In this document: positions 6,033 through 43,792 of the stretch, piece after piece
Position numbering within the stretch: position 1 is the stretch's first letter
Layout: each line of letters opens with the position of its first letter
Origin: Pyrinomonadaceae bacterium
Lineage (GTDB): Bacteria > Acidobacteriota > Blastocatellia > Pyrinomonadales > Pyrinomonadaceae
Direction: 5' to 3'
Length of the DNA stretch: 64,000 nt
Assembly: GCA_013003215.1 (NCBI GenBank)
Contig: JABDKD010000143.1
Span: 1-64,000 of the forward strand
Notes under the pieces: model-generated
The model's input: only the letters and a program-made list of their open reading frames with translations
The model's database searches: none
What the model was told of the DNA's origin: nothing
Translations under genes and position numbers: made by a program

Positions 6033-6047
6033 ATCTTTCCTTTGAGC

Positions 6048-7535: not shown

Positions 7536-7626
7536 AGTTGAGTCCTTACAAATTGTAGCAGGGTGGAAATCCGGGAGTTCCAAAAGCCCGGGGCTGTCTC
7601 TTGATTTGAGCACAGCAAAACCCCTA

Positions 7627-10623: not shown

Positions 10624-10641
10624 ACAGCAAAACCGTGGGCG

Positions 10642-12368: not shown

Positions 12369-12901
12369 AACTCTAGTCCCTCCTCAATTCTAAACGCGCC
12401 ATTTTCGTTAAAGATCGACCGTGCGCGATCCGAATCATAAGAACCGTCAGGTTGTTTCAAAACGAGTACGAAATTCCCGTCGTTTACTCCCTCGAGACTC
12501 TTTCTCTTGCTAAAAGGATGCAGGCCCGAAATTATGAAAAGCGCTCCTATCGCGCTTAGCCCCGCGAAAAGAACCGTCAGTTCAAATGCCACGGGAACCC
12601 ACAAGGGCACCGAGTTGAAGGGTTTACCACCAATATTCAACGCCCATGCATAAGCTGAAGTCCAAACCTGCAGGCCAATCGCGGTTAGCAGTCCTAATAG
12701 TCCGCCGCAAAATGCGACCCAAGTTAACCTCGATGGTTTGATTCCTACAGCATCATCCAGACCGTGCACCGGAAACGGCGTAAACGCATCATAGATCTCG
12801 AGTCCGCGAAGCCGCGCTTCGGCGGCGCTGGCCACAAGGTCGTCTTCGTTGTCAAAATACGCGGCGGTGAACCGTTCATGCGCCGTGTTTGTGCTTCGCA
12901 T
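12365..12901 (-). CDS. actD: Alternative complex III subunit ActD (DUF3341)
   Basis: This 178-residue membrane protein contains the hallmark FTPFPVHGLDDAVGIKPSRL near residues 40-60. Two membrane helices follow (LTWVAFCGGLLGLLTAIGLQ and VPVAFELTVLFAGLSAIGAL). ActD is a structural subunit that holds the quinol-oxidising ActC and ActF together; it carries no cofactor. Its start lies 26 bases inside the end of actC and its stop overlaps the actE start, as expected for a tightly coupled operon. Confidence 0.92.
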   Translation of the reverse strand: MRSTNTAHERFTAAYFDNEDDLVASAAEARLRGLEIYDAFTPFPVHGLDDAVGIKPSRLTWVAFCGGLLGLLTAIGLQVWTSAYAWALNIGGKPFNSVPLWVPVAFELTVLFAGLSAIGALFIISGLHPFSKRKSLEGVNDGNFVLVLKQPDGSYDSDRARSIFNENGAFRIEEGLEF

Positions 12902-14318
12902 AGTTCAAAACTCCTTTTACTTCGCTCGCGGCGATGATCGGGAATAGTCTCAGGAAAACGAGGAACGCTGAAAAAAACAGACCGAACGATCCGACAAGCA
13001 GCCCGACCTCGACATAACTCGGCATGTAGTACGTCCAACTGGATGGTAGATAGTCGCGGTGCAAACTGACCATGATGATCACGAATCTCTCGAACCACAT
13101 TCCAATGTTTATGAAGATGCTCATAACAAAGATCAGCGGGATAGAGCGTCTTATCTTCTTGATCCAGAAAAGCTGAGGCAACAGGGCGTTGCAACCGAAC
13201 ATTATCCAGTAGGCCCAGGCGTATGGACCGAGCAGCCGGTTGATGATCATGAATATCTCGTTCGGATTTCCCCCGTAAAAACCGATAAACAGTTCGGTAA
13301 TGTACGCTAGGCCTACAATTGAGCCCGTAAGAAGGGTTACGAGGCACATCTTTTCGAAATGGTCGATTGTGATGTAGTTCTCCAGACGCATCACCTTCCT
13401 TACCAGAATCATCAACGTCATCACCATCGCGAAACCGCTAAATACTGCTCCTGCAACAAAATATGGCGGGAATATCGTTGAGTGCCAGCCCGGTATCAGC
13501 GATGTGGCAAAGTCGAAACTAACAATACTGTGCACGGATAATACAAGCGGGGTCGCAAGGGCCGCGAGGATTCCGTAAACTGTCTCATATCTTGACCACG
13601 TCCGGTTCGATCCATCCCATCCGAGACATAGCACCGTATAGAATGTCTTGCGCCATCCCGGTTTCGCGCGGTCCCGGGCGGTTGCGAGGTCCGGAAGCAA
13701 TCCCAAATACCAAAACACCAGGGAGATCGTGAAATAAGTTGAGATCGCGAAAAAGTCCCACAACAGAGGTGATCGGAAATTAACCCAAAGGGAACCTCGT
13801 GTATTCGGGTAGGGAAGGAACCAATAGAACAGCCAGGGTCTTCCCATATGTATTATCGGGAAGATGCCCGCGCACATTACGGCGAACAGGGTCATCGCCT
13901 CCGCTGAACGGTTTATCGAGGTTCTCCACTTCTGGTTAAAGAGATAGAGGATCGCTGAAATAAAGGTTCCCGCGTGACCGATTCCGATCCAAAAAACGAA
14001 ATTCGTAATGTCGAAAGCCCAGCCGACCGTCTTATTCAGGCCCCAGGTTCCGATACCGATAGTTACGGTCAAATAGCCCGAAACGATACCGGCCAACAGC
14101 AGTATCAATGAGATCGTGAATGCGATCCACCATCCGAATCCGGCTTTTCCTTCATGGATCGAATGAATGTCATTCGTAATGTCACTGTAGCTCTTGTCTC
14201 CGCCGACCAGAGGCTTCCGAAGAGGGGAATAGACGGGATGCTCGGTCAAACGACCGACTTCTTCGTGCAGTCTCGCCTCCTCCCTCGTCAGGCCTCGTCT
14301 ATCCATAGGCACAGCCAT
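12876..14318 (-). CDS. actC: Alternative complex III subunit ActC (NrfD-like)
   Basis: This 480-residue integral membrane protein has about ten helices and belongs to the NrfD/PsrC family. It opens with a hydrophilic stretch of about 50 residues. The quinone-binding helices include WAFDITNFVFWIGIGHAGTF and IIHMGRPWLFYWFLPYPN. ActC is the main quinol-binding subunit of alternative complex III. Its ATG directly abuts the actB stop, with no bases between. The acidic residues along helices expected to form a proton path cannot be judged without a model. Confidence 0.93.
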   Translation of the reverse strand: MAVPMDRRGLTREEARLHEEVGRLTEHPVYSPLRKPLVGGDKSYSDITNDIHSIHEGKAGFGWWIAFTISLILLLAGIVSGYLTVTIGIGTWGLNKTVGWAFDITNFVFWIGIGHAGTFISAILYLFNQKWRTSINRSAEAMTLFAVMCAGIFPIIHMGRPWLFYWFLPYPNTRGSLWVNFRSPLLWDFFAISTYFTISLVFWYLGLLPDLATARDRAKPGWRKTFYTVLCLGWDGSNRTWSRYETVYGILAALATPLVLSVHSIVSFDFATSLIPGWHSTIFPPYFVAGAVFSGFAMVMTLMILVRKVMRLENYITIDHFEKMCLVTLLTGSIVGLAYITELFIGFYGGNPNEIFMIINRLLGPYAWAYWIMFGCNALLPQLFWIKKIRRSIPLIFVMSIFINIGMWFERFVIIMVSLHRDYLPSSWTYYMPSYVEVGLLVGSFGLFFSAFLVFLRLFPIIAASEVKGVLNYAKHKHGA

Positions 14319-17216
14319 TTAATGCTCCTCTCCGTGGTCTTCAGAATTAGTAATCTTAGCCAGGTAACTTACTGCCGGTTTTGTGTTGAGATCTTCCAGC
14401 AGCACATAGTTCCGGCCCGATTTCTTCAACGCAACAACCCGGCTCTTCAAATTCTTTGTATCTCCAAACTCAATCGCATTCGCCGGACAACTTTGCTGAC
14501 ATGCAGTCTGGATCTCTCCGTCTTTTATTTCGCGGTTTTCATTTCTCGCGACAATCTTCTTCTCTTCGATACGCTGCACGCACATCGTGCATTTTTCCAT
14601 TACACCTCTTGACCGGACGGTCACATCCGGGTTGAGAGCAAGATTCGCAGTCGGGTCGTCGTGAGGGTATTCAAACCAGTTGAAGCGTCTGACCTTGTAA
14701 GCGCAGTTGTTGGCGCAATAGCGTGTGCCGACGCAGCGGTTGTACACCTGCATATTTAGTCCTTCAGTGCTGTGGACTGTCGCCAGGACAGGGCACACCA
14801 TTTCGCAGGAAGCGTTCTCACAGTGCATACAGGGCAGCGGTTGGAAACGTGTCGTTGGCTCATCCGCGGATTCGTCGAAATACCGGTCTATTCTCAGCCA
14901 GTGCATATCTCTTTGAAGTCCGACCTCGTCCTTTCCAACGACCGGGATATTGTTTTCAGCCTGGCAACTTAGAACGCATGCATTACAGCCGGTGCAAGCG
15001 CTCAGGTCTACCGCCATACCCCATTTGTGTTCCGGATACTCGTGCTCGCTGAAGAGCTTTTCGAATTCGGTCTCCTCGATGTCAACCTTTCCGTCCTTGT
15101 AAGCGGCGAGGGAGTACTCCTTGATCAACGGCCGTTCGTGCGCGGACGGCTCGATTTGCATTTTTGCGAACTGGGTAGCAGCAGCCGTCGATTTCGCCAC
15201 TGTGATCCCGTCGATCTCGAAACTCCTGAGGCCATTTCCGTATTCCGCAAAGATCGCCGCATTAACTCCAACGTCGTTTCCGGCGTTACCCGCTTTGGTA
15301 CGGCCGTAGCCTATTGCGACCGAAAGGCAGTCATTGGCTTGTCCGGGTTGGATGAGCACCGGGATCTCTATCGAGTTTTCACCCTTCGTGATCTTTATCG
15401 GGTCACCTTCCACAACTCCAAGTGCGGAAGCAGTTTCATCTGAAACCAACGCGTAGTTGTCCCATGTCACCTTGGAGATCGGATCGGGAAGTTCCTGAAG
15501 CCACGGACTGTTCGCAAATCTTCCGTCCAGAATTCCGGGTTTTTGGTAGAGAACCAATGAGTACCCTTCTTTCGACGTGTCGACGGTTTTTTGAACAGCA
15601 TTGTCGAGACCGTCAGAGGAGTAACTGGCAGGAGTCGCAGGGCTCTGGGACTCTTCAAAGACGCCATCATGGAGCGACTTATCCCAGAAATCGTTGAAAT
15701 CGCTGAATTTGTCTTGTTTTGTGAAAAGCGTTTCTTTCCAGTTCCGCTGAAGCTCTCGATAGAACTCTGTCTCCTCGCCCATCCAGCGCATGAAGCTTTC
15801 TTGGTAATGCCTGGTCTTATAGAGCGGGGAAATTGCCGGTTGGCTTATGCTGAACACGCCGGTACGGACGTTCGAGTCGTCCCAGCTCTCGAGATGATGG
15901 GGAATCGCACAGACGACTTTGCATGCCGCAGAAGTCTCATTGCCGGTTGATGTCATTGAAACTGTCAACGGAATCTTCTTAATGGCTTCGTTAAATCTCG
16001 CAGCGTCAGGAGCCTCGTATAAAGGATTAACATCGACCATGAACAACGCACCGACGTCTCCAGATTCAGCTTCGGAAACAAGGTCATCGAAACTAAGCGC
16101 TTCTTCGGCCTCTTCCGAGGCAGCGGGTATTACAACAGTCGTTCCATAATTCTCGAGGGCATTATTAATTGCATTTACCAAAAGCTGGACGTCAGGATTA
16201 CCGGATCCGCACACTACGAGCGAACTGCCCTTGTTCTTCGACAATTCCGCTGCAGCTTCATCAACTGCTTTTTTCAGCCCTTCAGGAATTGTTAAGGAAT
16301 CAGCAACGTGATCGGCAGAGACCTTTCCAAGAAGGTAGTTCAGACAGAGCCTTTGTTCTTTCGGGGAGGCCGTGTGCCGGTAATCGGCATTGGCACCGGT
16401 GACGGAGATGCGGCTTTCAAATTGAATGTGTTTGAGCATTTCCTTTGACCCGTTCTTGAGCTCCCTGGCGGAAGAATATGCTTTTGTGAAAGCAACCGGC
16501 GAGATCCAGGTTCCAAGGAAATCAGCTTCGAATCCGACCACAATGTGTGCCTTCTCGATGTCGTAAGTAGGCAGGGATTTGTTGGAATGGCTGATACCGT
16601 GAGCATGAACGATCGCCGCCGGACCGAACGGCTCATACTCCACGAGTTTCGCATCCTCATAACTTCCAATGAATCTTCTCAGCACGGCACGCGAGGTGGG
16701 ACTTGTAATTCTTGGCGTGAGAACTCGAACTTTCTTTCCGGCTGACTTTGAATCGGCCAGCTTCGCAATCACCTCTTTATCGATCGCGGCCCAATCCGTG
16801 TCCTTCGCATCAAGAGTCGGGCCCTTCAGCCGTTCCGGATCAAACAGCCCAAACACCAGGGAGTGGGCAACGGAGCAAAGCCCTCCTTTGGACACCGGGT
16901 GGTCCGGATTTCCTTCCAGCTTGATTGGACGCCCGTCTCTAACCTTCATGAGCGTACCGCAGCCGGCATTGCATCCGCCGCAGGTAGACGCGTACCAATT
17001 TGCCATGCCCGGTGTGACTTCAGCCGGCTTCTTCAGATATGGAACAACTGCCTGTTCCGGTACCCGGCAGCTCATCAATGCCGCTCCGGCGGCGGTGTAG
17101 CCCAGCGCGGCCAGGAATGAACGCCTTGAGAATCCGTTGATAGGGCGGCTGATCCCGACGGGTTTGCCGTTCTCATCGGTTTCGAGAAATTGTTTCCAAG
17201 TCTTTTCGCGGTTCAT
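14319..17216 (-). CDS. actB: Alternative complex III subunit ActB (molybdopterin-fold/iron-sulfur fusion)
   Basis: The protein has about 965 residues. It has a twin-arginine signal near residues 28-45 (SRRSFLAALGYTAAG), here a translocation signal of the TAT-variant type. A CxxCxxxC [4Fe-4S]-like motif (CGGCNAGCG), a long molybdopterin-oxidoreductase fold and a C-terminal four-cluster ferredoxin domain follow. Cluster motifs are CTGCNACVLSC, CMHCENASCEMVC, CVGTRYCANNC and CTMC...CQQSC. In this family the molybdenum site is lost and the protein acts as an electron wire to ActA. ATG 17216 is preferred over the ATG at 17225 because of spacing from GAGG. Confidence 0.93.
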   Translation of the reverse strand: MNREKTWKQFLETDENGKPVGISRPINGFSRRSFLAALGYTAAGAALMSCRVPEQAVVPYLKKPAEVTPGMANWYASTCGGCNAGCGTLMKVRDGRPIKLEGNPDHPVSKGGLCSVAHSLVFGLFDPERLKGPTLDAKDTDWAAIDKEVIAKLADSKSAGKKVRVLTPRITSPTSRAVLRRFIGSYEDAKLVEYEPFGPAAIVHAHGISHSNKSLPTYDIEKAHIVVGFEADFLGTWISPVAFTKAYSSARELKNGSKEMLKHIQFESRISVTGANADYRHTASPKEQRLCLNYLLGKVSADHVADSLTIPEGLKKAVDEAAAELSKNKGSSLVVCGSGNPDVQLLVNAINNALENYGTTVVIPAASEEAEEALSFDDLVSEAESGDVGALFMVDVNPLYEAPDAARFNEAIKKIPLTVSMTSTGNETSAACKVVCAIPHHLESWDDSNVRTGVFSISQPAISPLYKTRHYQESFMRWMGEETEFYRELQRNWKETLFTKQDKFSDFNDFWDKSLHDGVFEESQSPATPASYSSDGLDNAVQKTVDTSKEGYSLVLYQKPGILDGRFANSPWLQELPDPISKVTWDNYALVSDETASALGVVEGDPIKITKGENSIEIPVLIQPGQANDCLSVAIGYGRTKAGNAGNDVGVNAAIFAEYGNGLRSFEIDGITVAKSTAAATQFAKMQIEPSAHERPLIKEYSLAAYKDGKVDIEETEFEKLFSEHEYPEHKWGMAVDLSACTGCNACVLSCQAENNIPVVGKDEVGLQRDMHWLRIDRYFDESADEPTTRFQPLPCMHCENASCEMVCPVLATVHSTEGLNMQVYNRCVGTRYCANNCAYKVRRFNWFEYPHDDPTANLALNPDVTVRSRGVMEKCTMCVQRIEEKKIVARNENREIKDGEIQTACQQSCPANAIEFGDTKNLKSRVVALKKSGRNYVLLEDLNTKPAVSYLAKITNSEDHGEEH

Positions 17217-17229
17217 AAAAACCATTTCC

Positions 17230-17817
17230 TCAGTGGTGGCATACTGCGCAGTCTGTCGACGTCTTGAGAGTCTTCTTATTCGAATCCAGGATCTTTATCG
17301 GATTGCCGTCTTGGTCCAAAACGGCATCCTTATGAGTTCTGTGACAGTTGACACATGAACCCATTGAAAAGGTGCTCTCCTGGCTGATCCTTTCCATCGT
17401 TTCAACCGGTCCGTGGCAAGTGTTGCAGTTTACTCCCGCATTTACGTGCCTGCTGTGGTTGAAGATCGCGTGGTCCGGCAGGTCGTTGACCTTCACCCAT
17501 CTGATAGGTTCATTCCTCTTCAGTGCCATCGAGATCTTCTGGATCTCGGGGGAGTCCGGCTTAACCTGATCGTGACAAGCCATACAATTCTCTGCAGTAG
17601 GGATTCCGGCTACCCGGGATGTATCTGCAGAGGTATGGCAATATGTGCAGTTGATGCTGTTGTCGCCCGCGTGCACTTTATGGGAGAAATTGATCGGCTG
17701 AAGCGGTTGATAACCGCTCTGATCACCATACTGCCGGAATGTTCCGTTCGACCAGATCACGGCAGCGCCGATCACGGTGATCAATATCGAAATTATTTTT
17801 AGCGTTCTTAAACTCAT
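17230..17817 (-). CDS. actA: Alternative complex III subunit ActA (pentaheme cytochrome c)
   Basis: This 195-residue protein has an N-terminal hydrophobic anchor (ISILITVIGAAVIW) and five heme-c motifs: CTYCH, CMACH, CNTCH, CVNCH and CAVCH. It has the ActA phrase YQPLQPINFSHKVHAG. ActA takes electrons from ActB and passes them on to ActE or soluble cytochrome c on the periplasmic side. It is the first act gene and lies 19 bases after narI, which places the whole act set downstream of the nitrate reductase genes. Confidence 0.94.
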   Translation of the reverse strand: MSLRTLKIISILITVIGAAVIWSNGTFRQYGDQSGYQPLQPINFSHKVHAGDNSINCTYCHTSADTSRVAGIPTAENCMACHDQVKPDSPEIQKISMALKRNEPIRWVKVNDLPDHAIFNHSRHVNAGVNCNTCHGPVETMERISQESTFSMGSCVNCHRTHKDAVLDQDGNPIKILDSNKKTLKTSTDCAVCHH

Positions 17818-17836
17818 CTAAGCACCATTAATTCAA

Positions 17837-18559
17837 TTACTTATGACCGGCAATCTGGGTCTTGTCCCGTGTGTACTGGCCACGAATCCTCTCCCGGTCC
17901 CAATTCCACTTAACGACCTGATAAGGACGCCAGAGATAGGTGATCGGGATTGAGAACATATGCACCAGTCTTGAAAACGGAAAAACCAACAGGATCGTGA
18001 ACGCCCCGATGATGTGGAGTTTGACCACGAGGGGCATCGTTACGACGAGACTCAGATCAGGTCGGAAAGAAAACAGCGAATAAAGATAGGGAACGAGCGT
18101 TGCGGCATACCATGAAGATCCCCATCGATAGAAAAGAGCTGTGAAAACTCCCAGTGCCACTTGAACAAGCAACAGCACTACCACCACGTAATCCATCGGT
18201 GACGATACTGCACGTATCTTCGGAGTGCTGACTCGCCGCCAGAAAAGGGCAACCACGCCGACCAGGGCCAGCAATCCGAATACAAGGCCGGTGACCTCCA
18301 GGATGTAGAGCCGCAGCGGAACGCTGTTAAACCAAAGCACTTGGTTTGGAATCAGAAATCCGATTACGTGTCCCAAAAGGGATCCGAGGATTCCGATGTG
18401 CCACGGTACGGATCCGTAGAAAAGCTCATCTCCCTCGAGGAATTGTGATGAAAGGCTCGAATACGAAAACCTGTTAGTCACGAACCGGTAGATTGACACG
18501 ACCACGAATATCGCGAACGCCATGTAGGGTAAGACAACAAACAGGAAGTAGTTAAGCAT
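17837..18559 (-). CDS. narI: Respiratory nitrate reductase gamma subunit
   Basis: This 240-residue membrane protein with five helices carries two heme b. Ligand candidates are His54 and His64 (PWHIGILGSLLGH) and a C-terminal pair 18 residues apart (KLHIIGAF...RLVHMF), the same spacing as in E. coli NarI. It oxidises quinol at the periplasmic side and feeds NarH. The start at 18559 is chosen because GAGAGG precedes it by eight bases and the sequence from MLNYFLF matches the family. The start overlaps the narJ end by eight bases. Confidence 0.95.
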   Translation of the reverse strand: MLNYFLFVVLPYMAFAIFVVVSIYRFVTNRFSYSSLSSQFLEGDELFYGSVPWHIGILGSLLGHVIGFLIPNQVLWFNSVPLRLYILEVTGLVFGLLALVGVVALFWRRVSTPKIRAVSSPMDYVVVVLLLVQVALGVFTALFYRWGSSWYAATLVPYLYSLFSFRPDLSLVVTMPLVVKLHIIGAFTILLVFPFSRLVHMFSIPITYLWRPYQVVKWNWDRERIRGQYTRDKTQIAGHK

Positions 18560-19208
18560 ATTGGTACCTCTCGTTTTCGACGCCGGGTTGGTCATGCAAT
18601 GATTGTTCGGCAATACTCAGCAGTGCTGACTCCAGAAATCCAATGGCGTCACCATACACATTCTCTTTTTTCTTCAGCGCTTCCTTCATTGTTTTCAATG
18701 CCGGCAGCAAACAACATCCAATCAGCGAGGCACGAAGTTCGTCATTGTCCAGCTTGGTCATCAGGCGCAGCAGAACCGGTAAATAGTCCGGCAACTGAAA
18801 CTCCTGTTTTAGTTCGTAGGGAAGCTGTGTTTCGCGAAGATTCGCCAGAAAAGCGCCGCGTTTGTAGTCCTCCCCAAAAAGGTGGTGACCGATATCGAGT
18901 CCGCATACCGGATTGAGATCAAACGTTCTCGAGTAGTACTCTCTCGATTCATCCAGGGTCAACTCGTGAAAAGCATCGGCGAATTCGTGCAAAAGAGGGG
19001 AACTGCCGGCGAAGGCTTCCTTAGCCAGCGAGCCGCATTTCGAAATCAAGTCTGAATGCGTGTCGCCCGGATACTCAAGGACATCCGCAAAATGCGCAAA
19101 CAACTCATTCTCGGCCTCGCTAAGCATAATCTTCTCAGCCGTTTTCACAGTCTCGATCCCGGCTCGCGCCTTTTCTCTGGTTATCTGTACTGGGTCGTTC
19201 TTCATCAT
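18552..19208 (-). CDS. narJ: Nitrate reductase assembly chaperone
   Basis: This 218-residue soluble protein belongs to the NarJ/TorD chaperone family. It contains the typical SREYYSRTFDLNPVCGLDIG stretch followed by HLFGEDYKRGAFLANL. NarJ binds the N-terminus of NarG and helps insert the molybdenum cofactor and an iron-sulfur cluster; it is not part of the mature enzyme. The start MMKND at 19208 lies five bases after the narH stop; an upstream extension would run into narH. The last codons overlap narI, which suggests coupled translation. Confidence 0.92.
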   Translation of the reverse strand: MMKNDPVQITREKARAGIETVKTAEKIMLSEAENELFAHFADVLEYPGDTHSDLISKCGSLAKEAFAGSSPLLHEFADAFHELTLDESREYYSRTFDLNPVCGLDIGHHLFGEDYKRGAFLANLRETQLPYELKQEFQLPDYLPVLLRLMTKLDNDELRASLIGCCLLPALKTMKEALKKKENVYGDAIGFLESALLSIAEQSLHDQPGVENERYQYA

Positions 19209-19213
19209 TTCGG

Positions 19214-20707
19214 TTAGCTTCCCCTTACCGGTAGGTTCCTCGAACCAAGTCCGGCCTTGCCTTTCTCGTCCCACATATCGTCATTGAGCATTTGAAGTGC
19301 TTCTTCGCGGTGTGATGGTGGAATGACAACCCGTTCGTCCATCGTCGGCAGCGAGGTCAGCCGATAGATCGCTTCAGCTTCGGCCTCGTCCATACCGCAT
19401 TCTTCAAGTGCCACCCTGACAGTTTCGGCGTCAATATCTCCTACCGTTTCCAACCGCTTGAATAGCCTCACTGCATACTGCTTCTTAAGCGCAAGCGAAA
19501 CATGATCGATATTGCCCGCTGAAAACAGGCTCGCCATGAACTCCAGCGGCAGCCTCGACTTCTCAATCGGACTGAATAGTTCATCGTTCGCAGTGTCGTA
19601 CACTCCGTCCTCAGTGTTTGCCATCACCGGCAACATCGGCGGGACGTAAAACAGCATCGGCAATGTGCGGAATTCAGGGTGAAGCGGCAGGGCAAGTCCC
19701 CATTCCTTCACAAACTTGTAGACCGGTGACCGCTCGACAGCCTCGAGTGTTCTCTCATCGATCCCGTTCTTCATCGCGCCTTTCCTGACTTCGGGGTCGT
19801 GCGGGTCGAGGAGGATATCGCGATGCGCGTCAACAAGGTGGCCATCCGGAACGTTGACCGAATCGACTAGTTTGTCTGCGTCGTATAGCAAGCCTCCCAG
19901 ATACCTAATCCGTCCGACGCAGGAATGGAAGCAAGCCGGTGCCTGACCCGTCTCGAGACGCGGAAAACACAAGATGCATTTTTCGCTTTTGCCGGTCGAC
20001 CAGTTATAGAAGGTCTTCTTGTAGGGGCACGCGGTTACACACATTCTCCATGCACGGCATTTGTCCTGGTTGATCAGGACCACGCCATCCTCGCCTCGCT
20101 TATAGATTGCGCCTGAAGGGCATGAAGCAACACAACTGGGATTTAGGCAGTGGTTGCAAATGCGCGGAAGATAGAAGAACACGAGTCGTTCGATATCGAA
20201 CAATTCCTCTCTTTGTTCCTCAGTCAGTGCATCGAGGTTCGGGTCATTTGCCGCATACACAGGCGAACCGCTGAGATCGTCGTCCCAGTTTGGTCCCGCT
20301 TCGATCTCCATGTACTCACCCGTAATCATCGAAACAGGGCGAGCGGTCGGCTGATCTGCTCCCTCAGGTGCGTCAAAGAGGTTTTCGTATTCGTAGGTCC
20401 AAGGTTCGTAATAATCGTCCAGTTTCGGAAGATCCGGGTTATGAAAGATGTTGAGTAACCGCGAACTCTTAGAACCCATCTTGAGGCCAGGCTTTTCACC
20501 GTTACTCTCCCAGCCGCCCTTATATTTAGTCTGGTCTTCCCAGGCAGTCGGATATCCTGTTCCGGGCTTGGTCTCAACGTTATTCCACCACATGTACTCC
20601 GCGCCCTCGCGATCGGTCCAGACGTTCTTGCAGGCGATCGAACAGGTGTGGCACCCGATACACTTATCCAAATGAAACACCATCGAAGTTTGAAGTCTGA
20701 CGTCCAT
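19214..20707 (-). CDS. narH: Respiratory nitrate reductase beta subunit
   Basis: This 497-residue protein carries four iron-sulfur clusters linking NarI to NarG. Motifs are CIGCHTCSIAC near residue 16, CNHCLNPSCVASC, CRAWRMCVTAC and CILC...CFHSC. The Trp replacing one cysteine in CRAW is a NarH hallmark that yields a [3Fe-4S] cluster. It lies in the cytoplasm on the membrane surface. A strong AAGGAG site precedes the ATG by six bases, 18 bases downstream of narG. Confidence 0.96.
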   Translation of the reverse strand: MDVRLQTSMVFHLDKCIGCHTCSIACKNVWTDREGAEYMWWNNVETKPGTGYPTAWEDQTKYKGGWESNGEKPGLKMGSKSSRLLNIFHNPDLPKLDDYYEPWTYEYENLFDAPEGADQPTARPVSMITGEYMEIEAGPNWDDDLSGSPVYAANDPNLDALTEEQREELFDIERLVFFYLPRICNHCLNPSCVASCPSGAIYKRGEDGVVLINQDKCRAWRMCVTACPYKKTFYNWSTGKSEKCILCFPRLETGQAPACFHSCVGRIRYLGGLLYDADKLVDSVNVPDGHLVDAHRDILLDPHDPEVRKGAMKNGIDERTLEAVERSPVYKFVKEWGLALPLHPEFRTLPMLFYVPPMLPVMANTEDGVYDTANDELFSPIEKSRLPLEFMASLFSAGNIDHVSLALKKQYAVRLFKRLETVGDIDAETVRVALEECGMDEAEAEAIYRLTSLPTMDERVVIPPSHREEALQMLNDDMWDEKGKAGLGSRNLPVRGS

Positions 20708-20725
20708 AGTTCTCCTTTCAGGCCT

Positions 20726-23700
20726 TTAGTAAGTGACCTTCTCCAGTTTCCTGACCATGATGAACGTGTCGCGGTTGACACCGGTCGGGCCCCAATAATT
20801 AAAGTGATACGTGTATTGACCGTAGCCGCCCATCATCAGCGTGGGTTTTAATCGAATTCTCGTAAGGCTGTTGTGGCCTCCGGCTCTTCGGTTTCCCCGA
20901 AGCGGCGATTTCGGAACACCAAGCGTTCTTTCGGGTGAGTGGTATTGAATACAAACACCTCTTGGAATTCGTGCCGAGACGATACAGCGCGTGCAAAAAA
21001 CGCCATTGTCGTTGTAGACCTCGACCCAGTCGTTATCGTTGATGCCGAGGCTCGCGGCGTCTTCATCGTTCAACCAAAGAGGTTCACAACCCCTTGAAAG
21101 GGTCATCATTCGGTGGTTATCCGAGTAGGTTGAGTGAATATGCCACTTCCCGTGCGGCGTTAAGTAGTTTAATGCTAAGGCTTTACCGTCAGTCGGGCTG
21201 ACCTTTAGATCACCGTAATCAGCAGGAAGAGGCGATGGCTTGTACGTCGGCAGGTTTTCGCCGAACGCGATATAACCTTCCTGGTCCTGGTAATAGTGCT
21301 GTCTTCCGGTAAGCGTTCGCCATGGCACAAGTTTTTCGTAGTTGTAAGTGAACGGCGCATAGGCTCTGCCTTCATCGACAAGTCCCGACCAAACCGGACT
21401 GTTGATAATTCTCTTGGGCTGCGCCTGAAGATCCGCGTAGCTTGCCCGTGCATGCCGGCTTTTCTCAGCGAGGTCTGCCAATATACGGCCGACCTTTTTC
21501 TCCATGAACTTGTAGCCGCGGTAGGCCAACTCTCCGTTTGATTCCGGAGCAAAATGGAGGATCATATTCGCCGCGTCTTCCGCTCTCTTGATCGAGGGGT
21601 ATTTTCCGCCGCCCCATTCCTCGACCGGGTATTTCCTTGATTCGATTACTTCTTCGTAGAGGTCCTCGGTTTCGTACTTCACGCCATGAGCCCCGAGACC
21701 GTTCCTGACATTGGGACCGAAAGAGATGAACCTCTTGTAAAGATTCGCGTAGTCTCTTTCGACAACCTTCACGTGCGGCATCGTTTTCCCCGGGATCGGT
21801 TCGCATTCGCCTTTTGACCAGTCTTTGATCTCAGGTTGTGAAATCTCATCCGGAGAATCGTGAAGCAGCGGTACCGTGACCAGGTCACGGACCGGTTCCG
21901 GTAAGTTGGTTTCAGCGAGTTCGCTTACTTTCTTTGCAAGCCCCCTGAAGATCTCCCAGTCGCTTCTCGATTCCCAACACGGCGGAACAGCTTCCGAAAG
22001 CGGGTGGATAAACGAGTGCATATCTGTCGAGTTGAGGTCGGCCTTTTCATACCAGGTTGCTGCCGGGAGAATAATGTCCGAGTAAAGCGCAGATGTGTCC
22101 ATTCGGAAGTTCAGATCGACAACGAGGTCCATCTTTCCTTCCGCGGCCTCTCTTTCGACATTGATGTCGTTAACAGAACCTTCGGCGCATTGCTCGGCGA
22201 CATCATTGTGGTGAGTTCCCAAGTAATACTTCAGGAAAAATTCATGTCCCTTCGCGCTGGACATAAGGGCGTTACCGCGCCAGATGAACCAGACTCTAGG
22301 GAAGTTTGCCGGATTGCTCGGGTCTTCCGCAGAGAATTTGAGTTTCTTGTCCTTGAGCTGTTTTGCAACATAAGCAGCTGTGTCTTCCGGACTATTCACT
22401 CCCACAGCGGCCGCATCAGCAAGAATCTCGTGATTGGGTTTCTCAAACTGGGGGTAAAAAGGAAGCCATCCGTTTCGCACCGCTTTGATCTGAACATCTG
22501 CAGTATGTCCCTTTGCAACCGAGCCAGCGCCGTTCACCGCGGTGTTTTCGGGCAGAGTGTGGTATTGAGAAAACTCTTTCTCATAACGCCACTGTTCACT
22601 GTTTATGTAGTGCCACGACGGCGCATTCTGGAGCCTTGACGGGCCGATCCAGTCCTTCGCGAAGGCTAGGTTTGACCATGACGCCACCGGTGCGAGTTTC
22701 TCTTGTCCGACATAGTGATTCAGTCCGCCGCCATTCTTTCCAACGCAACCGCATAGCATAAGAGCTGTTATTGCGGACCTGTAGATCAAATTGTTGTGAT
22801 ACCAGTGATTGATGCCGGCACCGATGATGACCATGCATTTGCCTTCGGTCTCGCGGGCGGTTACTGACCATTCGCGGGCAAATTTTATTACGGTTTTACG
22901 GTCGATACCTGAAAATTTCTCTTGCCATGCCGGCGTGTAGGCTGAATTCTCATCATCGTAGTCGGAAGGATAGTCACCTTCGAGCCCTCTCGAAACACCA
23001 AATTGCGCCATCAGGAGGTCGTATACTGTCGTAACAATCTTTTCACCGTCTTCAGTCTGTATGGTTCTTGTAGGAACTCCGCGTTTAGCAACGTTGCCGC
23101 TGCCAAATTCGCGCGTTACTACCTGCACGGTTTCTTCGGAACCTTCCAGAAGCGATAGTTTAGGAGCGATCTCGGAGCCGTCGGTCGGGTCTATAAATTC
23201 CAGGTTCCAATTGCCTTCCTGGGTGCCCCAACGATGCCCCATCGTTCCACCCGGTGTCCGCGGCGCGTTCGAATGCTCATCCCAAATAAGGAATTTCCAT
23301 TCTCCATTTTCTTCACCCGCATAGCGGTCTGTCTTAGAAGCCCGCACCAGTCTTCCGGCCTCGTAACCGGTCTCGGTTTTGACGAGCTCGATCAGGAACG
23401 GCGAGTCGGTGTATTTCTTCGAATACTCTATAAAATAAGGCGTTCGTTGTTCGTGGTGGAACTCTTTGAGAATTACATGGTTAACGGCTTGCCAGTAGGC
23501 ACCGTCCTGACCGGCCAAAACCGGTATCCACTGGTCTGCGTATTTCGCAACCTGGCTGAAGTCGGGGGCCATTACGACCATCTTTGTGCCGTTGTGCCTT
23601 GCCTCTGCGGCAAAGTGACAATCAGGGGTCCGCGTCATGTTCAGGTTTGAGCCCATGACCGCGATGAATTTCGAGTTATACCAGTCCGCGCTCTCACAAA

Positions 23701-24361
23701 CATCGGTTTGCTCACCCCAGATCTCCGGGGAGGCGGGCGGAAGATCACAATACCAGTCGTAAAAACTCAGGTTTACTCCGCCCATAAGCTGGAGGAAACG
23801 GGATCCGGCGCCATATGAAAGGAAAGACATAGCCGGGATCGGTGAAAACCCGATGATCCGGTCAGGTCCGTGTTTTTTAATAGTGTGAATACAGGACGCA
23901 GCGATAATCTCCTGAACCTCGTCCCAGCTGGCCCTTCGAAATCCGCCTTTCCCGCGTGCGCGCTGGAATCGTGCCCTTTGAGCGGGGTTGTTCATAATCG
24001 ATTCCCAAGCTTTTACCGGGTCGCTGTGCTTTTCTTTGGCCTTGCGCCAAATATCCTGTAGGGCTCCCCGCAGGTAGGGATACTTAACTCTGATCGGGCT
24101 GTATAAATACCAGGAGTATGAGATACCCCGCTGGCATCCTCTCGGTTCGTAAGGCGGGATTCCGTCTTCGAGCAGGGGATAGTCGAGCGCCTGCATTTCC
24201 CAGGTTACGATTCCTTGTTTGACATAGATATTCCAACTGCAGCCGCCCGTGCAATTGACGCCGTGCGTACTTCTGATGACCTTGTCGTGCTGCCATCGAT
24301 TCCTGTAGAACTCTTCCCAGGAACGAGTCTTTGGACTGATCATGTCCTTTATCCAATTCAT
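20726..24361 (-). CDS. narG: Respiratory nitrate reductase alpha subunit
   Basis: This catalytic molybdenum subunit of about 1211 residues reduces nitrate to nitrite. The FS0 cluster ligands are His33, Cys37, Cys41 and Cys76, the same spacing as E. coli NarG His49/Cys53/Cys57/Cys92. The molybdenum-ligand aspartate is in YCDLPP. No twin-arginine signal is present, so the enzyme faces the cytoplasm and needs nitrate import by NarK. The start at 24361 forms an ATGA overlap with the upstream cytochrome gene. The absence of an export signal separates it from archaeal-type outward-facing Nar. Confidence 0.96.
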
Positions 24362-25233
24362 ATTTTCGACCTCTCCACGATGTCGCCCCGGACGTTGCCG
24401 TGACGTTTGCGCCAAACAAAATTCAAGCCCACGAGCGCGAGCACAGTGAATACGAAACCCGTGATTAGGAATCTCGGTTCAACAGCGCCGCTGTCGGTAG
24501 TAGCCGCTATTGCTGCATTTGGACTAACTTCCTTAGAATGTTTTAGATACGCGAAAACCTGAACGATTTCCTCTTCGGTGAGTTTGTGATCCCTGAACAT
24601 CTCGGTCATTGTCGGGAAATTGGGCTCCTGAAGTATCAGGATCAATTCGGGGTCACGATATTTGATATTTGTAGCAGTCAGGTCCGGCCCCAGCGTTCCG
24701 CCGCCGTAAGAACCGAAACTTCCAATTCCGTGGCATGTGCTGCAGGCGACCCCGCCGTTTTCGAATTCCTTTTGGCCGGTGAACAGACGCCAGCCTTCAC
24801 GAACATCGCTCCTTCGAATAGGACGCGCCAGTTTCGCGCCTTCAGGCGTAAACATTTCGCCGCTGTCCGAAAGCGTTTTTATCGTCTTCAGGAGGGAATC
24901 CATTTCCTCATCGGTCAGCGATTGGTCCGGCATAATCTCAGGGGCGAAGTCCTTGAATAAAGAAGCTGCATCCTGGTCTTTCCTGCTCATCGCTGTCGGA
25001 GTTCGAATGAACTCTTTTAGCCACTCCTCCGACCGACGGTCAGTCACGCCCTTCAGATCGGGACCCTGCTTGTTGCCCCCGCCAATGTTGTGACAGCTGA
25101 AGCATTTGGTTTCAAAAACTTTTCTTCCGGGATCCTGACCAAATCCTGCCGCGGCCAGTATTCCGATCAGCAATGCAACAGCAAAAGCTACGAGACCTGC
25201 TGATTTGAAATAACTATTCTTTGTAATTGGCAT
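24358..25233 (-). CDS. Membrane-anchored diheme cytochrome c preceding narG
   Basis: This 291-residue exported protein has a hydrophobic signal or anchor ([20 protein letters not shown]). It carries a first cytochrome c domain with CFSCH (Cys44, Cys47, His48), a second with CSTCH, and a C-terminal transmembrane helix ([20 protein letters not shown]) with a basic tail. The domains are periplasmic. It lies between the Rrf2 gene and narG and overlaps both. By analogy Thermus nar operons have a diheme NarC there, but this protein is not clearly its homologue. It may link periplasmic electron carriers to the nar or ACIII complex. ATG 25233 is chosen; 25239 is possible. Confidence 0.85.
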
Positions 25234-25687
25234 AAACATCTTCAACTGTCTCCAATTCGAGTGTTTCCAGAGCACCCTCTTTTTCTCTCGGTCCCGCCAA
25301 GTCTCCGATCGTTGTCGACTTCAGCAGACCTATAAAGCTCCTTCTAAGCGGTAACCACGCTTCGTCAAGTTCGCATCTGTGGCCCTCACCGCAGTCTTCA
25401 AAACCGAGAATGCAGGAACGTGATTCCGGAATGGGATCCAACACTTCACAAATCTTCCAAAGGGTAATCTCGCTCGCCGGTTCGGCTAGCTCATAGCCGC
25501 CATGAATGCCTTTCGCCGACACCAGAAGTCCATGTTTTCTAAGATCTCCAAGTATCTTTCCCAGGTACGCCGGCGGAATTTTTTCAAAATCTGCTACCTC
25601 CTGGAGACTGCATGGATGCGAATCAGCGTGGCCTGCCAAGTAAACCATCGCGCGAATTCCATAAGTTGTTGTCTTTGAAAGGACCAC
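25214..25687 (-). CDS. Rrf2-family regulator with three clustered cysteines (NsrR/IscR-like)
   Basis: This 157-residue protein has an N-terminal winged helix (KTTTYGIRAMVYLAGH) and Cys92, Cys99 and Cys105, the position range used by IscR and NsrR to hold an iron-sulfur cluster. The spacing is six and five residues, slightly wider than the usual five and five. NsrR senses NO and IscR senses cluster supply. It is the first gene of the nar-act unit, so it probably controls its own operon. A GTG start at 25687 with GGAG five bases upstream is used. Its last 20 bases overlap the cytochrome gene. Confidence 0.85.
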   Translation of the reverse strand: MVLSKTTTYGIRAMVYLAGHADSHPCSLQEVADFEKIPPAYLGKILGDLRKHGLLVSAKGIHGGYELAEPASEITLWKICEVLDPIPESRSCILGFEDCGEGHRCELDEAWLPLRRSFIGLLKSTTIGDLAGPREKEGALETLELETVEDVYANYKE

Positions 25688-25710
25688 GTTGCTCCAACCG
25701 ATAAACGTAC

Positions 25711-25737
25711 CTTCTTATCTCTTTATGTATGATTGCG
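25711..25737 (-). promoter_or_regulatory. Element shared with the narK promoter
   Basis: CTTCTTATCTCTT (25711-25723), 8 bases, ATTGCG (25732-25737). It lies 24-50 bases upstream of the GTG of the Rrf2 gene and is in the same orientation and spacing as the copy upstream of narK. In the gap with the divergent PAS-LuxR gene, it is a good candidate for that regulator's own target or for a core promoter. Confidence 0.5.
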
Positions 25738-25809
25738 ATTCGTGATACGGTGAACAATAGTTAGAACGAATCATTTTTCTGGTTAAGATGCCTAGTCGAA
25801 TTTGTCCAT

Positions 25810-26448
25810 ATGAAGCGTCGTGAAATCCGAGATCTTGTTGAAAGTACCGCAGATGCAGCGTTTTCGGTTGACGGAATGCACAACATCGAATTTTGGAATG
25901 ATGCTGCAATAGAATTTTTTGGGATTCCGGCCGAGGAGGCAATCGGCACGATGTGTGCGGAAATAATCCAGGGCTATGACGATTGCGGCAAGTTTTGTTC
26001 AGCCGATTGTTGCGTTTTCGACGCTGCGTACCAGGGCAGCAAAATGAGGAATTTTGATCTCAAGGTAAAGGCCGGTGACAGGTCCCTTTGGTGCAACGTC
26101 TCGGTCATGATCGCGAAGGTAGACGGGGCAACGATGCCTTCGACGATTCACATCGTCAGGGAAATCGACCGGAGAAAACGATTAGAGGTTTTAGTGAAAG
26201 ATTTCGTTGCGGATGACACAGCCGCCGAGTCTACAGCCAGGAGCCCTGTGCGGGAGACACCGCTTACTGAACGGGAAAGAGAGGTACTGCAGAGTCTCTC
26301 AAAAGGAAAGACAAGTGCCGCGATTGCAAAGGAATTGAGCATAAGCCGCTCAACAGTAAACAATCATGTTCAGCATATTCTGAAAAAGCTGAACGCGCAT
26401 TCGAGGCTCGAGGCGATTCGGAGAGCCGAACACGCCGGGCTAATCTAG
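25810..26448 (+). CDS. PAS-LuxR type transcriptional regulator
   Basis: This 212-residue protein joins an N-terminal PAS sensor domain (about 1-120) to a C-terminal LuxR helix-turn-helix (LTEREREVLQSLSKGK, then SISRSTVNNHVQHILKKL). Five cysteines are packed in the PAS domain (Cys49, 59, 63, 67, 68), a pattern suited to an iron-sulfur cluster or disulfide switch, though this is inference. It is divergent from the nar operon and lies ahead of ric. It may sense redox or oxygen and control nar or narK. It ends in a clear terminator. No ribosome site is obvious. Confidence 0.85.
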   Translation: MKRREIRDLVESTADAAFSVDGMHNIEFWNDAAIEFFGIPAEEAIGTMCAEIIQGYDDCGKFCSADCCVFDAAYQGSKMRNFDLKVKAGDRSLWCNVSVMIAKVDGATMPSTIHIVREIDRRKRLEVLVKDFVADDTAAESTARSPVRETPLTEREREVLQSLSKGKTSAAIAKELSISRSTVNNHVQHILKKLNAHSRLEAIRRAEHAGLI

Positions 26449-26472
26449 CGAAATGTTAAAAACGTCGCAGCG

Positions 26473-26499
26473 AACATGACTTCGGTCATGTTTTTTTTT
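26473..26499 (+). terminator. Rho-independent terminator of the PAS-LuxR gene
   Basis: AACATGAC pairs with GTCATGTT around a TTCG tetraloop and is followed by nine T residues. It begins 25 bases past the stop. Confidence 0.92.
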
Positions 26500-26552
26500 G
26501 CGCCTAACATAGACAATCTTTGATGAGAATGGCGCATAGGAGGATTTGAGAG

Positions 26553-27260
26553 ATGTTGACAAAGACAGTAAGAGAGATAGCGTTGGAATCTCCGGCAACG
26601 GTTCGCGTATTTGAAGAGTTTAAGATCGATTATTGCTGCGGCGGATCTAAAAGCCTCGAAGAGGCCTGCCGGATCGCAGATGCAGACGAGGCGGGGGTCA
26701 CGTCAAGACTTGAAGCCGTACTCGATTCGGAAAACGGGAGCGAGGCCGAGCCGCCCGCAGATCCGGTCGAACTAATCGCTCATATAGTTCAGAAGCATCA
26801 TACGTACACCCGCAATGAGATCGAGAGACTAAGCCCTCTACTTAAGAAGGTGTGTGAGAAACACGGGCAGGCGCATGAAGAGCTTTTTGTCATTCGCGAC
26901 CATTTTCACGCTCTCGCCCTGGACTTAGGGCCACACTTGATGAGGGAAGAACAGGTACTCTTTCCGTACATAGAAAAACTCGCAAGATCGGTTCAAACCG
27001 GAGAGAACAGACCTTTCGCGCCCTTTGGTGAAGTGCGGAATCCGATTAGGATGATGAGCTTTGAGCACGAGACTGCCGGATCAATTCTTAAAGACATGCG
27101 AAAAGCTTCAAAAGAATACAAGCCGCCCGCAGGGGCATGTCCAAGCTACACCGCACTTTACTTCGGTCTTGAAGAACTCGAGCGCGATCTTCACAGGCAT
27201 ATTCACCTGGAAAACAATTTACTTTTTCCACTTGCGATTGAAATGGAGAGCGGCGCTTAG
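26553..27260 (+). CDS. ric: Iron-sulfur cluster repair di-iron protein
   Basis: This 235-residue protein has the N-terminal ScdA/Ric domain with the DYCCGG motif (Cys28, Cys29), then a hemerythrin-like bundle with VQKHHTY, FHALALDLGPHLMREEQVLF, FEHETAGS and HIHLENNLLFP. Ric repairs di-iron centres and clusters damaged by NO or peroxide. A perfect AGGAGG site sits nine bases before the ATG. It follows the PAS-LuxR terminator and overlaps the convergent hemerythrin gene by four bases. Its location beside the nitrate reductase operon fits protection from NO made from nitrite. Confidence 0.92.
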   Translation: MLTKTVREIALESPATVRVFEEFKIDYCCGGSKSLEEACRIADADEAGVTSRLEAVLDSENGSEAEPPADPVELIAHIVQKHHTYTRNEIERLSPLLKKVCEKHGQAHEELFVIRDHFHALALDLGPHLMREEQVLFPYIEKLARSVQTGENRPFAPFGEVRNPIRMMSFEHETAGSILKDMRKASKEYKPPAGACPSYTALYFGLEELERDLHRHIHLENNLLFPLAIEMESGA

Positions 27261-37363: not shown

Positions 37364-38446
37364 ATGGATAAAGCATTTTGGACATTTCTTATCGGGATTT
37401 TCATTTTTACCGGTTGTGAAACGAACGCGTTGACGGATAGCACGCCTGAAATGCAGCAACCAGTTGATAACGTCGAGACCCGCACCGATGACGAAATTGA
37501 AGGTGAAGGTGACGGAGTTTGGGCAAAAGAGAACTTTGATCTTTTGGCCGTTGGTTCGCTGTTGGAAGATGTTAAAGACATTGAAGAACTCGAACAGGTC
37601 GTCAACAGTAAAGAGGGGGTGAATAATCTGGACCTCGACGGCGACGGCTTTACAGATTATGTGTCGATCGAGGAGTTTGAGGACAGGTCGGACGGCGAAC
37701 GAGGTTTTACTCTGTTTTCGAAATTCGGTCCGGACGAGGTTCAGGAGATCGCATCCCTTATTTTTTTGAGAGATCGTCCGGATCGCAGGGGTTCTAATGT
37801 GTACGTGCAGGGAAACCGGCAGATTTATGGCGACAATTTTGGATTTAGGGGTAACTGGATAGACAAATCAATCGCGATTGCGGGCTGGGTGTTTGGTGAC
37901 AGGGCGAGTTATTACCGTTCGCCCTACTACAACCGCAATTTGCCCGATTACTATAGAAGGCACAAGGTTGTAAGAACCGTTAAATATAAGAGTCGGTTGT
38001 TCAAATACCATAAGAATCCGGCGATGACGAAGATCACAACGCCATTTGGCAAAATCATGATCAAATCGCGTTACCCGGGTAGGTCCTACCGGCGCGCCCA
38101 TGCTCGTATGTCGAATCCTACGAGCGACCAGAAGATCTTTATAAATGCGAAATTTGGCAAGCCCGGCAAGCCCGGCAAGCCCGGCAAGCCCGGCAAAGGC
38201 GGCAAACCCGGTAAAGCGGGAGATCCGAAGGGTAAGAATGACACGGGCAAAGCTAAATCTGCGAACCCACCGGGTAGGAAAGCCGGAAAATCCAATGGTA
38301 AAGGCGCCGGAAAGAAGCCCAAAGGAAAACCAGGGTCTAATCCGGGACCTAAAGGCAACAAAGGGAAACCGAAAGGACTGAATAAGGGGCCCGGCGGTCC
38401 GAAAGGCAAAGGCGGAAGCAAGGGTCGCGGAAAAGGAAAGGGTTGA
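37364..38446 (+). CDS. Lipoprotein with EF-hand-like loop and cationic Gly-Lys-Pro tail
   Basis: This 360-residue protein has a short N-terminal signal with a lipobox-like FTGC (Cys18). A calcium-type loop DLDGDGFTDYVS lies near residue 91. A mid region has YRSPYYNRNLPDYYRRHK and other basic tracts. From about residue 263 to the end the protein is nearly all Gly, Lys and Pro with collagen-like GKP repeats, giving a very high positive charge. It probably sits in the outer membrane and may bind acidic polymers, DNA or polysaccharide, but no known family is recognised. Terminates at a strong hairpin. Confidence 0.7.
   Translation: MDKAFWTFLIGIFIFTGCETNALTDSTPEMQQPVDNVETRTDDEIEGEGDGVWAKENFDLLAVGSLLEDVKDIEELEQVVNSKEGVNNLDLDGDGFTDYVSIEEFEDRSDGERGFTLFSKFGPDEVQEIASLIFLRDRPDRRGSNVYVQGNRQIYGDNFGFRGNWIDKSIAIAGWVFGDRASYYRSPYYNRNLPDYYRRHKVVRTVKYKSRLFKYHKNPAMTKITTPFGKIMIKSRYPGRSYRRAHARMSNPTSDQKIFINAKFGKPGKPGKPGKPGKGGKPGKAGDPKGKNDTGKAKSANPPGRKAGKSNGKGAGKKPKGKPGSNPGPKGNKGKPKGLNKGPGGPKGKGGSKGRGKGKG
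38156..38218 (+). repeat. Nine-base coding tandem repeat
   Basis: GGCAAGCCC repeats perfectly four times (38156-38191), followed by three diverged copies. It encodes the GKP units in the lipoprotein tail and is likely to vary in copy number by slippage. Confidence 0.85.
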
Positions 38447-43103: not shown

Positions 43104-43298
43104 TTAAGCCGCTCTTCCTCGTGTCCTGAACACGAGATAAACGACAACCGCGATGACTACCGCTGCCGTCAGATCCCAAACACACGGCTCACCTGGTCTG
43201 TACCCCGGAATGAATTTCTTCCAAGCCGAACGATCGACAATGGTCTCCTCAAAAATCACGAAAGAGTTGAAAAGTGCGGCCCATGAAACGATCTTCAT
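43104..43298 (-). CDS. Small membrane protein divergent from the MerR gene
   Basis: With the start at 43298 (GGAA site nine bases upstream) the protein has 64 residues. It has one strong C-terminal helix (DLTAAVVIAVVVYLVF) and a possible N-terminal one, with one Cys in PGEPCVW between. An earlier ATG at 43337 would need a leaderless message from the promoter described next. The position relative to a MerR promoter suggests a regulated membrane protein, perhaps a small metal or drug factor, but no family is recognised. Confidence 0.55.
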   Translation of the reverse strand: MKIVSWAALFNSFVIFEETIVDRSAWKKFIPGYRPGEPCVWDLTAAVVIAVVVYLVFRTRGRAA

Positions 43299-43344
43299 TA
43301 AGTTCCATTGAAGGCTGCTAAATGTTGATTCTGTCATGATCTAG

Positions 43345-43376
43345 ACCATAAGCCTTGGAGTATGATCCAATGTCAA
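43345..43376 (-). promoter_or_regulatory. MerR-type promoter with dyad in a 20-base spacer
   Basis: On the minus strand, -35 TTGACA (43376-43371) and -10 TATGGT (43350-43345) are 20 bases apart. The spacer holds the dyad TTGGA-N6-TCCAA (43355-43370). MerR-family activators work on such overlong spacers by distorting the DNA. It faces the small membrane protein gene and overlaps the expected leader of the MerR gene. Confidence 0.7.
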
Positions 43377-43393
43377 AACCGGAGGGTCACCGA

Positions 43394-43792
43394 ATGTTGA
43401 TAGCTGAAGCAGCAATAGAAACCGGGTTTTCGAAAGATACGATCAGATACTACGAAAAAATCGGTCTGATAGAGCCGGAGAGAGACAATCAGCGGCATGC
43501 GGGATACAGGAGATTCGGATCGGCCGAAATTGAAAGACTCCGTAAGATACGGGGTCTCAAGGAATTCGGATTCACACTAGGCGAGATAAAGGCTCTTTTT
43601 GAACTTAAGCTAACCAGCAAATACGAGTGTGAGTCTGTAAACCGGTTCGTGGCAAAGAAGATCTCAGATATTGATCGCAAGATTATTGAACTCAGAGAAG
43701 CCAGATCCCGGCTAGAAAGCGCAAGGAAGAGATGTGTTGGAGAATGCGCTGATACTGTAGAAACTAACTCGCATCGACAGTCTCAAGCTTGA
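43394..43792 (+). CDS. MerR-family metal-sensor-like regulator
   Basis: The 132-residue protein starts at ATG 43394 with GGAGGG eight bases upstream; upstream in-frame starts lie in the promoter. The N-terminal winged helix reads MLIAEAAIETGFSKDTIRYY, followed by a dimerisation helix with Cys79, Cys114 and Cys118. Cys79 and Cys114 are at the same positions as metal ligands in ZntR and align with those of Tn501 MerR. A thiol-metal sensor for zinc, lead, mercury or similar is likely, but the ligand set CVGEC is not the standard one. It probably controls the small membrane gene and itself. Confidence 0.85.
   Translation: MLIAEAAIETGFSKDTIRYYEKIGLIEPERDNQRHAGYRRFGSAEIERLRKIRGLKEFGFTLGEIKALFELKLTSKYECESVNRFVAKKISDIDRKIIELREARSRLESARKRCVGECADTVETNSHRQSQA

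Follow-up and report, generated by a model that had tools for sequence, protein, structure and literature searches.

MerR regulators are well understood, and most of the genes that they are known to control encode pumps, chaperones or detoxifying enzymes. Some MerR-driven genes encode small inner-membrane proteins with few helices, such as MerE, MerF and MerT. The window, that is, the whole 64-kb stretch of DNA analyzed here, is from a soil bacterium and contains a MerR-family gene facing a gene for a small membrane protein of no recognized kind, which raises the question of what this regulator controls and which stress the two proteins might answer.

The wider surroundings of the pair comprise, as judged by eye, an apparent nitrate-respiration block with a large molybdoenzyme, iron-sulfur subunits and cytochromes (10057-27260), an iron-sulfur repair-like protein (26553), and two MFS-like transporters (4422-7613). 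The protein encoded at 37364-38446 ends in a long GKPGKPGKPGKG tail of low complexity with collagen-like repeats.

Promoter and operator between the divergent genes

The promoter of the small gene lies on the minus strand between the two divergent genes and consists of a -35 hexamer TTGACA (43371..43376) and a -10 hexamer TATGGT (43345..43350; four of six bases agree with TATAAT), which are 20 bp apart. Within this spacer lies the dyad TTGGA-N6-TCCAA (43355..43370), so that the site shows the arrangement typical of the MerR family, a dyad inside a promoter spacer of 19-20 bp. Searched with a variable spacer, the promoter pattern TTGACA-N{18,21}-TATGGT was found once in the window, at 43345-43376 on the minus strand, as compared with 0.01 copies expected per window from shuffled sequences. 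The dyad pattern also occurred once, with 0.09 copies expected. When the dyad centre was fixed at the position that applies to MerR promoters with a 20-bp spacer, seven of ten base pairs were symmetric, and only 0.5% of the shuffles were as good. When the centre was allowed to vary, symmetry at least as good was reached by 6% of the composition shuffles; because of this result, the dyad alone is only modestly symmetric, and it is the combination of promoter and dyad that carries weight. In the complete 4.2-Mb genome, the window site was the single perfect copy of TTGACN-TTGGAN6TCCAA, and one further copy, with one mismatch, lies inside another gene. These counts and the fixed-centre symmetry confirm the MerR-type layout given in the preliminary description, namely two hexamers separated by 20 bases that flank a TTGGA-N6-TCCAA dyad.

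The operator core TGGA-N6-TCCA has the register of a ZntR-type operator that this genome carries at locus L002. In comparison with the published 22-base ZntR operator consensus (PMC1526738), the window site agreed at 13 of 22 bases, a score reached by 0.09% of shuffles, and the L002 operator agreed at 20 of 22. At L002 (G000:C264, 1441-2519), the near-perfect operator is followed by a MerR gene and then by a gene for a MerT-HMA fusion-like protein. This MerT-HMA operon is separate and has a MerR of its own; the pair in the window is a different system. Two further loci of this genome, L003 and L004 (G000:C117 and C259), carry similar operons in which genes for a methyltransferase and a four-helix-looking protein with a GLWxYxP-like motif precede a MerR gene, and these MerR proteins have tree relatives in genomes of the same family.

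The regulator

The regulator gene (43394..43792, plus strand) encodes 132 amino acids and starts with ATG 43394, eight nucleotides behind a GGAGG ribosome-binding site (43381..43385, plus strand). With this start, the cysteines are Cys79, Cys114 and Cys118, exactly as first described. The Pfam models PF13411, PF09278 and PF00376 all scored above their cut-offs, which establishes the MerR winged-helix domain and with it the earlier assignment to the MerR family. The best NCBIfam models were ZntR (81.7 bits), MerR (79.9), CueR (74.3) and CadR-PbrR (72.0), and the protein remained at least 60 bits below each of the respective equivalog cut-offs of 167.95, 151, 147 and 151 bits. The nearest solved structures were the MerR-family regulatory protein 4ua1, CadR and CueR.

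Cys79 at the start of the dimerization helix and Cys114 as the first cysteine of the loop occupy the positions used by metal-sensing MerR proteins. The loop itself, CVGEC, is a short C-x3-C with Cys118 as the second cysteine, and not the longer C-x6-10-C; the loops of E. coli ZntR, E. coli CueR, CadR and MerR1 are all longer than that of the window regulator. The cluster motif C-x2-C-x-C-x5-C, present in E. coli SoxR, is absent from the window regulator. In our tree, the regulator fell on the metal side beside L057 (96/93), which, because of its long branch, is a hint and not proof. The MerR gene of L057 adjoins genes for two HMA-like metal-binding proteins, with domains judged by eye.

The small membrane protein

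The small gene (43104..43337, minus strand) encodes a protein of 77 amino acids with two predicted helices and a single cysteine, Cys52. The length of 64 residues given in the preliminary description results from an internal ATG at 43298; as the relatives start at about the same alignment position as ATG 43337, the 77-residue form is probably the better reading. This ATG is only seven bases beyond the -10 hexamer, and the mRNA may therefore be leaderless. Downstream of the regulator gene and of the small gene, folding was no better than in shuffles, and terminator-like matches were short and close to the expected number. AlphaFold predicted two long helices and a joining loop, with low confidence (pLDDT 66).

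In Pfam, NCBIfam, PHROG and PDB, the small protein had no match worth the name, and it matched neither transporters nor HMA proteins, in agreement with the earlier statement that the target is a small membrane protein with one cysteine and not a recognized efflux pump. A weak family resemblance came from one of the eight members described below, P0004, which matched the lycopene-cyclase-type model TIGR03462 (E 0.072) over residues 9-50, including the W-x-Y region. That the small protein is a fragment of such a membrane domain and a MerR-controlled relic of pigment synthesis is very improbable, as the match reached 13.6 bits against a cut-off of 39.4, the seven other members did not match, and no carotenoid genes were seen nearby by eye. 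A carotenoid link with this E value as its sole basis was not adopted.

The features described so far could also be those of a strict metal-resistance pair, in which the small protein would be a metal carrier like MerE or MerF, with Zn, Cd, Pb or Hg as its inducer. The metal-type regulator with Cys79 and Cys114 and the operator in ZntR register agree with such a carrier, as do the shortness of the protein and its two predicted helices. However, the protein has a single cysteine, whereas a cysteine pair is named for MerE in the abstract of PMC5715351. In addition, the Pfam models of MerE, MerF and MerT remained unmatched at E values up to 1, and the genome already possesses a MerR with a MerT-HMA gene.

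A protein family in eight genomes

A search of 396 genomes of the phylum, including the window's own, yielded two true relatives, in G157 (E 6e-10) and G295 (E 7e-8). A three-row profile was then compared with a species-genome collection, which comprises 84,980 genomes according to its own description, and it identified six loci in MAGs of Acidobacteria and Verrucomicrobia, among which the G295 gene appeared again. This gene is listed as L008 in G295 and as L038 in G463; the two proteins are identical and their contigs bear the same number, and we counted G295 and G463 as one genome. Keeping the two relatives from the phylum search and the six loci from the profile scan, the family comprises eight genomes, the window's and seven others from Acidobacteriota and Verrucomicrobiota; this small sample consists mostly of soil metagenome bins, in part with short contigs.

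The conserved core of the family is EE...DR..W..MP.Y....CxWD, and E30, R36, P44, Y46, C52, W54 and D55 are invariant in the alignment of all eight sequences. In the close pairs, nucleotide changes were mostly in third positions, and dN/dS was 0.16 for L035-L037 and 0.21 for L036-L038. By these sequence measures, the small protein represents a real protein family and not noise.

The family is sparsely distributed. It occurred in one of the 97 nearest genomes (the window's own, a weak chance match not counted), in 3 of 396 of the phylum sample (again without weak matches), in 1 of 193 genomes of the class of G157, and, if a single weak match is disregarded, in 1 of 387 of the Verrucomicrobia sample, namely the genome of the query. 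Weak genome matches with E values of 0.001-0.1 were dropped, as they were mostly located in long unrelated frames or contained stops. Also dropped was a weak second match in the window's genome, L032, which has two internal stops and is located among apparent ribosomal protein genes. A tblastn search of plasmids and phages gave a single weak plasmid match from Sinorhizobium (E 0.5), which we regard as chance because it runs antisense within a longer frame whose translation looks MlrC-like by eye, and three scans of viral contigs gave no relative of the small protein. Comparison of the family profile with the GLW-x-Y motif protein of L003 and L004 gave a probability of 2.4%, so that a link between the two fails.

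Linkage of the small gene to MerR genes

The preliminary description had named conservation of the small gene next to the regulator as a check, and this was indeed found: a MerR gene is adjacent to the small gene or two genes away in six of the eight genomes. The probability of such a linkage by chance is 2e-16; it is 1e-13 if the near-copy G459 is left out, and 2e-11 if the window is left out as well. MerR genes are few in these genomes, with seven in the window's genome (G000), four in G157, three in G461, two in G463, one each in G458, G459 and G460, and none in G462. In G459 and G460, the sole MerR gene found genome-wide is the one beside the small gene.

The arrangement of the genes varies. 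The divergent orientation of MerR and the small gene seen in the window recurs at L035; L034 is nearly a copy of this locus, with a shortened intergenic space. A direct comparison (L034 near 1424-1501, L035 near 700-830) showed that the region between the two genes, including the promoter, is missing in L034, which suggests either a decayed allele or a misassembly. At L007, MerR, the small gene and a DUF2867 gene follow each other on one strand, and L036 also has its two genes on a single strand, the small gene ahead of MerR. At L038, MerR faces an operon that encodes a protein with a CCPF motif, a DUF2867 protein and the small protein. The DUF2867 genes in these clusters of G157 and G463 are the only ones in their genomes. 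The secreted-looking ERRCCPFFDF protein of L038 (4834-5262), which lies between the SoxR-like MerR and DUF2867, has seven relatives on Bacillus-group and Adhaeribacter plasmids, all of them hypothetical.

In the two remaining genomes, at L033 and L037, no MerR gene was found near the small gene, and in G462 there was no MerR match genome-wide. At L033, repeats of about 110 nucleotides or more that end with CTCGTTAG (164-274, 611-742 and 1944-2123) flank the small gene. They resemble an integron cassette array, which could explain how the small gene travels without MerR, and their single-strand folding was no better than that of shuffles. At L037 (2968-3311), the small gene is fused in frame to upstream sequence beside an aldo-keto-reductase-like frame, and a degenerate second copy of the first helix of the small protein follows the small gene.

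None of the 96 nearest sampled genomes has the pair if one weak chance match is disregarded, and the sampled genus holds no close relative of it. Four loci of the same genus that contain the neighboring ketoacyl-synthase-like gene had neither MerR nor the small gene in the roughly 240-1,500 bases that they extend beyond that gene.

Partner regulators from three MerR lineages

Linked small genes are usually accompanied by a MerR-type operator. The sites at L007, L035 and L036 were symmetric with eight of ten base pairs each, and the L038 operator was weak with five of ten. The L007 site consists of TTGACT and CTATA-N6-TATAG, whose register equals that of the window site, and it resembles a CadR/PbrR operator. 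The L035 and L036 sites share TTGACTTAAAG-N3-ACTTCAAGT; their dyad centre lies one base closer to the -35 hexamer, in a SoxR-box-like layout.

For the phylogeny of the regulators, 28 of 29 phylum relatives were included, as L066 was dropped by the match or length filter. L071 duplicates L007 in this tree, and the L034 MerR, nearly a copy of that at L035, was not included. The five partner MerRs required three label changes on the tree, and a single change sufficed in 0% of the bootstrap trees. Those of L035, L036 and L038 grouped with E. coli SoxR (99/94) and retain three of the four C-terminal cluster cysteines of SoxR, with the first one missing; they have no counterpart of Cys79. The L007 and window regulators are both on the metal side and are not sisters. 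As judged from the tree, the partner MerRs thus belong to three lineages: that of the window, another metal-type one, and a SoxR-like one. The pairing has therefore arisen repeatedly, and the pair is not a unit that was inherited once. Either different MerR systems would have captured the small gene, or MerRs would have replaced each other beside it, and in both cases the small protein would be tied to cysteine-based MerR sensors in general and not to one metal.

These lineages also bear on the metal carrier considered above. The L007 partner is metal-type as well and would suit such a carrier, but SoxR-like regulators make up three of the five partners in the tree, and altogether we regard a dedicated carrier for Zn, Cd, Pb or Hg as unlikely. 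Somewhat less unlikely, although still doubtful, is a redox or electrophile response in which the small protein is part of a SoxR-type stress regulon and, in the window, another cysteine-based MerR has come in as the regulator. The grouping of three partners with SoxR points in this direction, and so does the pattern TTGACTTAAAGYNNACTTNAAGT, which is fitted by the L035 and L036 sites and in part by the L038 site. However, the window and L007 regulators are located on the metal side of the tree, and a SoxR with three cysteines may not hold an Fe-S cluster. The tight linkage to MerR genes of three lineages might further suggest that the small protein is a membrane-bound antagonist that controls the regulator and is no stress effector. 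This is quite improbable, as a direct MerR binder should track one MerR lineage, and as the small gene also occurs at L033 and L037, away from any MerR gene found, and in G462, which gave no MerR match.

Discussion

The reading that we favor, with rather more confidence than doubt, is a divergent MerR divergon whose effector, a membrane protein of two helices, answers thiol-reactive or redox-active stress; the regulator and the small protein probably act jointly in the response to metal or thiol stress. By analogy to known MerR proteins, a dimer of the regulator on the TTGGA-N6-TCCAA dyad in the over-long 20-bp spacer would keep the promoter off, and binding of an inducer would untwist the DNA such that the sigma-70 RNA polymerase could transcribe the small gene. 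Judging by Cys79, Cys114 and Cys118, by the operator register of ZntR type and by the closest models, a soft divalent metal ion is the most likely inducer in the window; it would be held by Cys79 of one subunit and Cys114 and Cys118 of the other.

The product would be an inner-membrane hairpin of 77 residues. Based on the positive-inside rule, we infer that both ends are cytoplasmic and that the loop with E30-E31, D35-R36, W, P44, Y46 and Cys52-x-W54-D55 is periplasmic. With its acidic, aromatic and cysteine residues, this conserved loop is where a ligand would sit, and the effector could bind or pass on the offending ion or compound, or protect a membrane enzyme. As the small protein is also found under another metal-type MerR and under SoxR-like MerRs, its most likely role is a general one at the membrane, directed against thiol-reactive or redox-active stress, rather than that of a transporter for a single metal. 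The earlier proposal of an undescribed metal or thiol response pair is plausible, but metal alone is too narrow: the three SoxR-like partners without a Cys79 counterpart suggest a broader thiol or redox signal.

The pair shares features with known systems. As in ZntR/zntA and CadR/cadA, the regulator has a Cys79-type residue and the dyad is placed in a 19-20 bp spacer (PMC1526738). The divergent promoter is reminiscent of cadR-cadA, and the operator register is that of the ZntR consensus. Unlike in ZntR/zntA and CadR/cadA, the target is a 77-residue protein and neither a P-type ATPase nor a CDF pump, and unlike ZntR itself, the regulator has a C-x3-C loop, and it scored 81.7 bits against the ZntR cut-off of 167.95. 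With MerE, MerF and MerT, the target has in common that it is small, membrane-bound and MerR-linked, but it has one cysteine instead of a pair in the first helix, and no family match. Non-enteric SoxR regulons offer a further parallel, as three relatives have SoxR-like partners, and SoxR-box-like sites in front of the small gene or of the operon that contains it; yet the window regulator is not SoxR-like, and the L035, L036 and L038 partners do not have the first of the four cluster cysteines. In the literature that we searched, with work on SoxR and on Acidobacteria judged by title and the beginning of the abstract, we found no report of a MerR gene transcribed divergently from a gene for a small membrane protein, and nothing on DUF2867 with MerR or on SoxR with MexG and DoxX.

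As a more far-reaching proposal, put forward tentatively and with slightly more doubt than confidence, the two-helix family may be a stand-alone effector that was recruited separately by at least three MerR lineages, two metal-type and one three-cysteine SoxR-like, and may mark a shared soft-metal and redox target in the membrane outside the known MerR regulons. An orphan membrane protein beside MerRs of different lineages would point to an unrecognized step of metal or thiol defence, and the three-cysteine SoxR-like partners would offer a natural test of a SoxR-type sensor without the full cluster motif.
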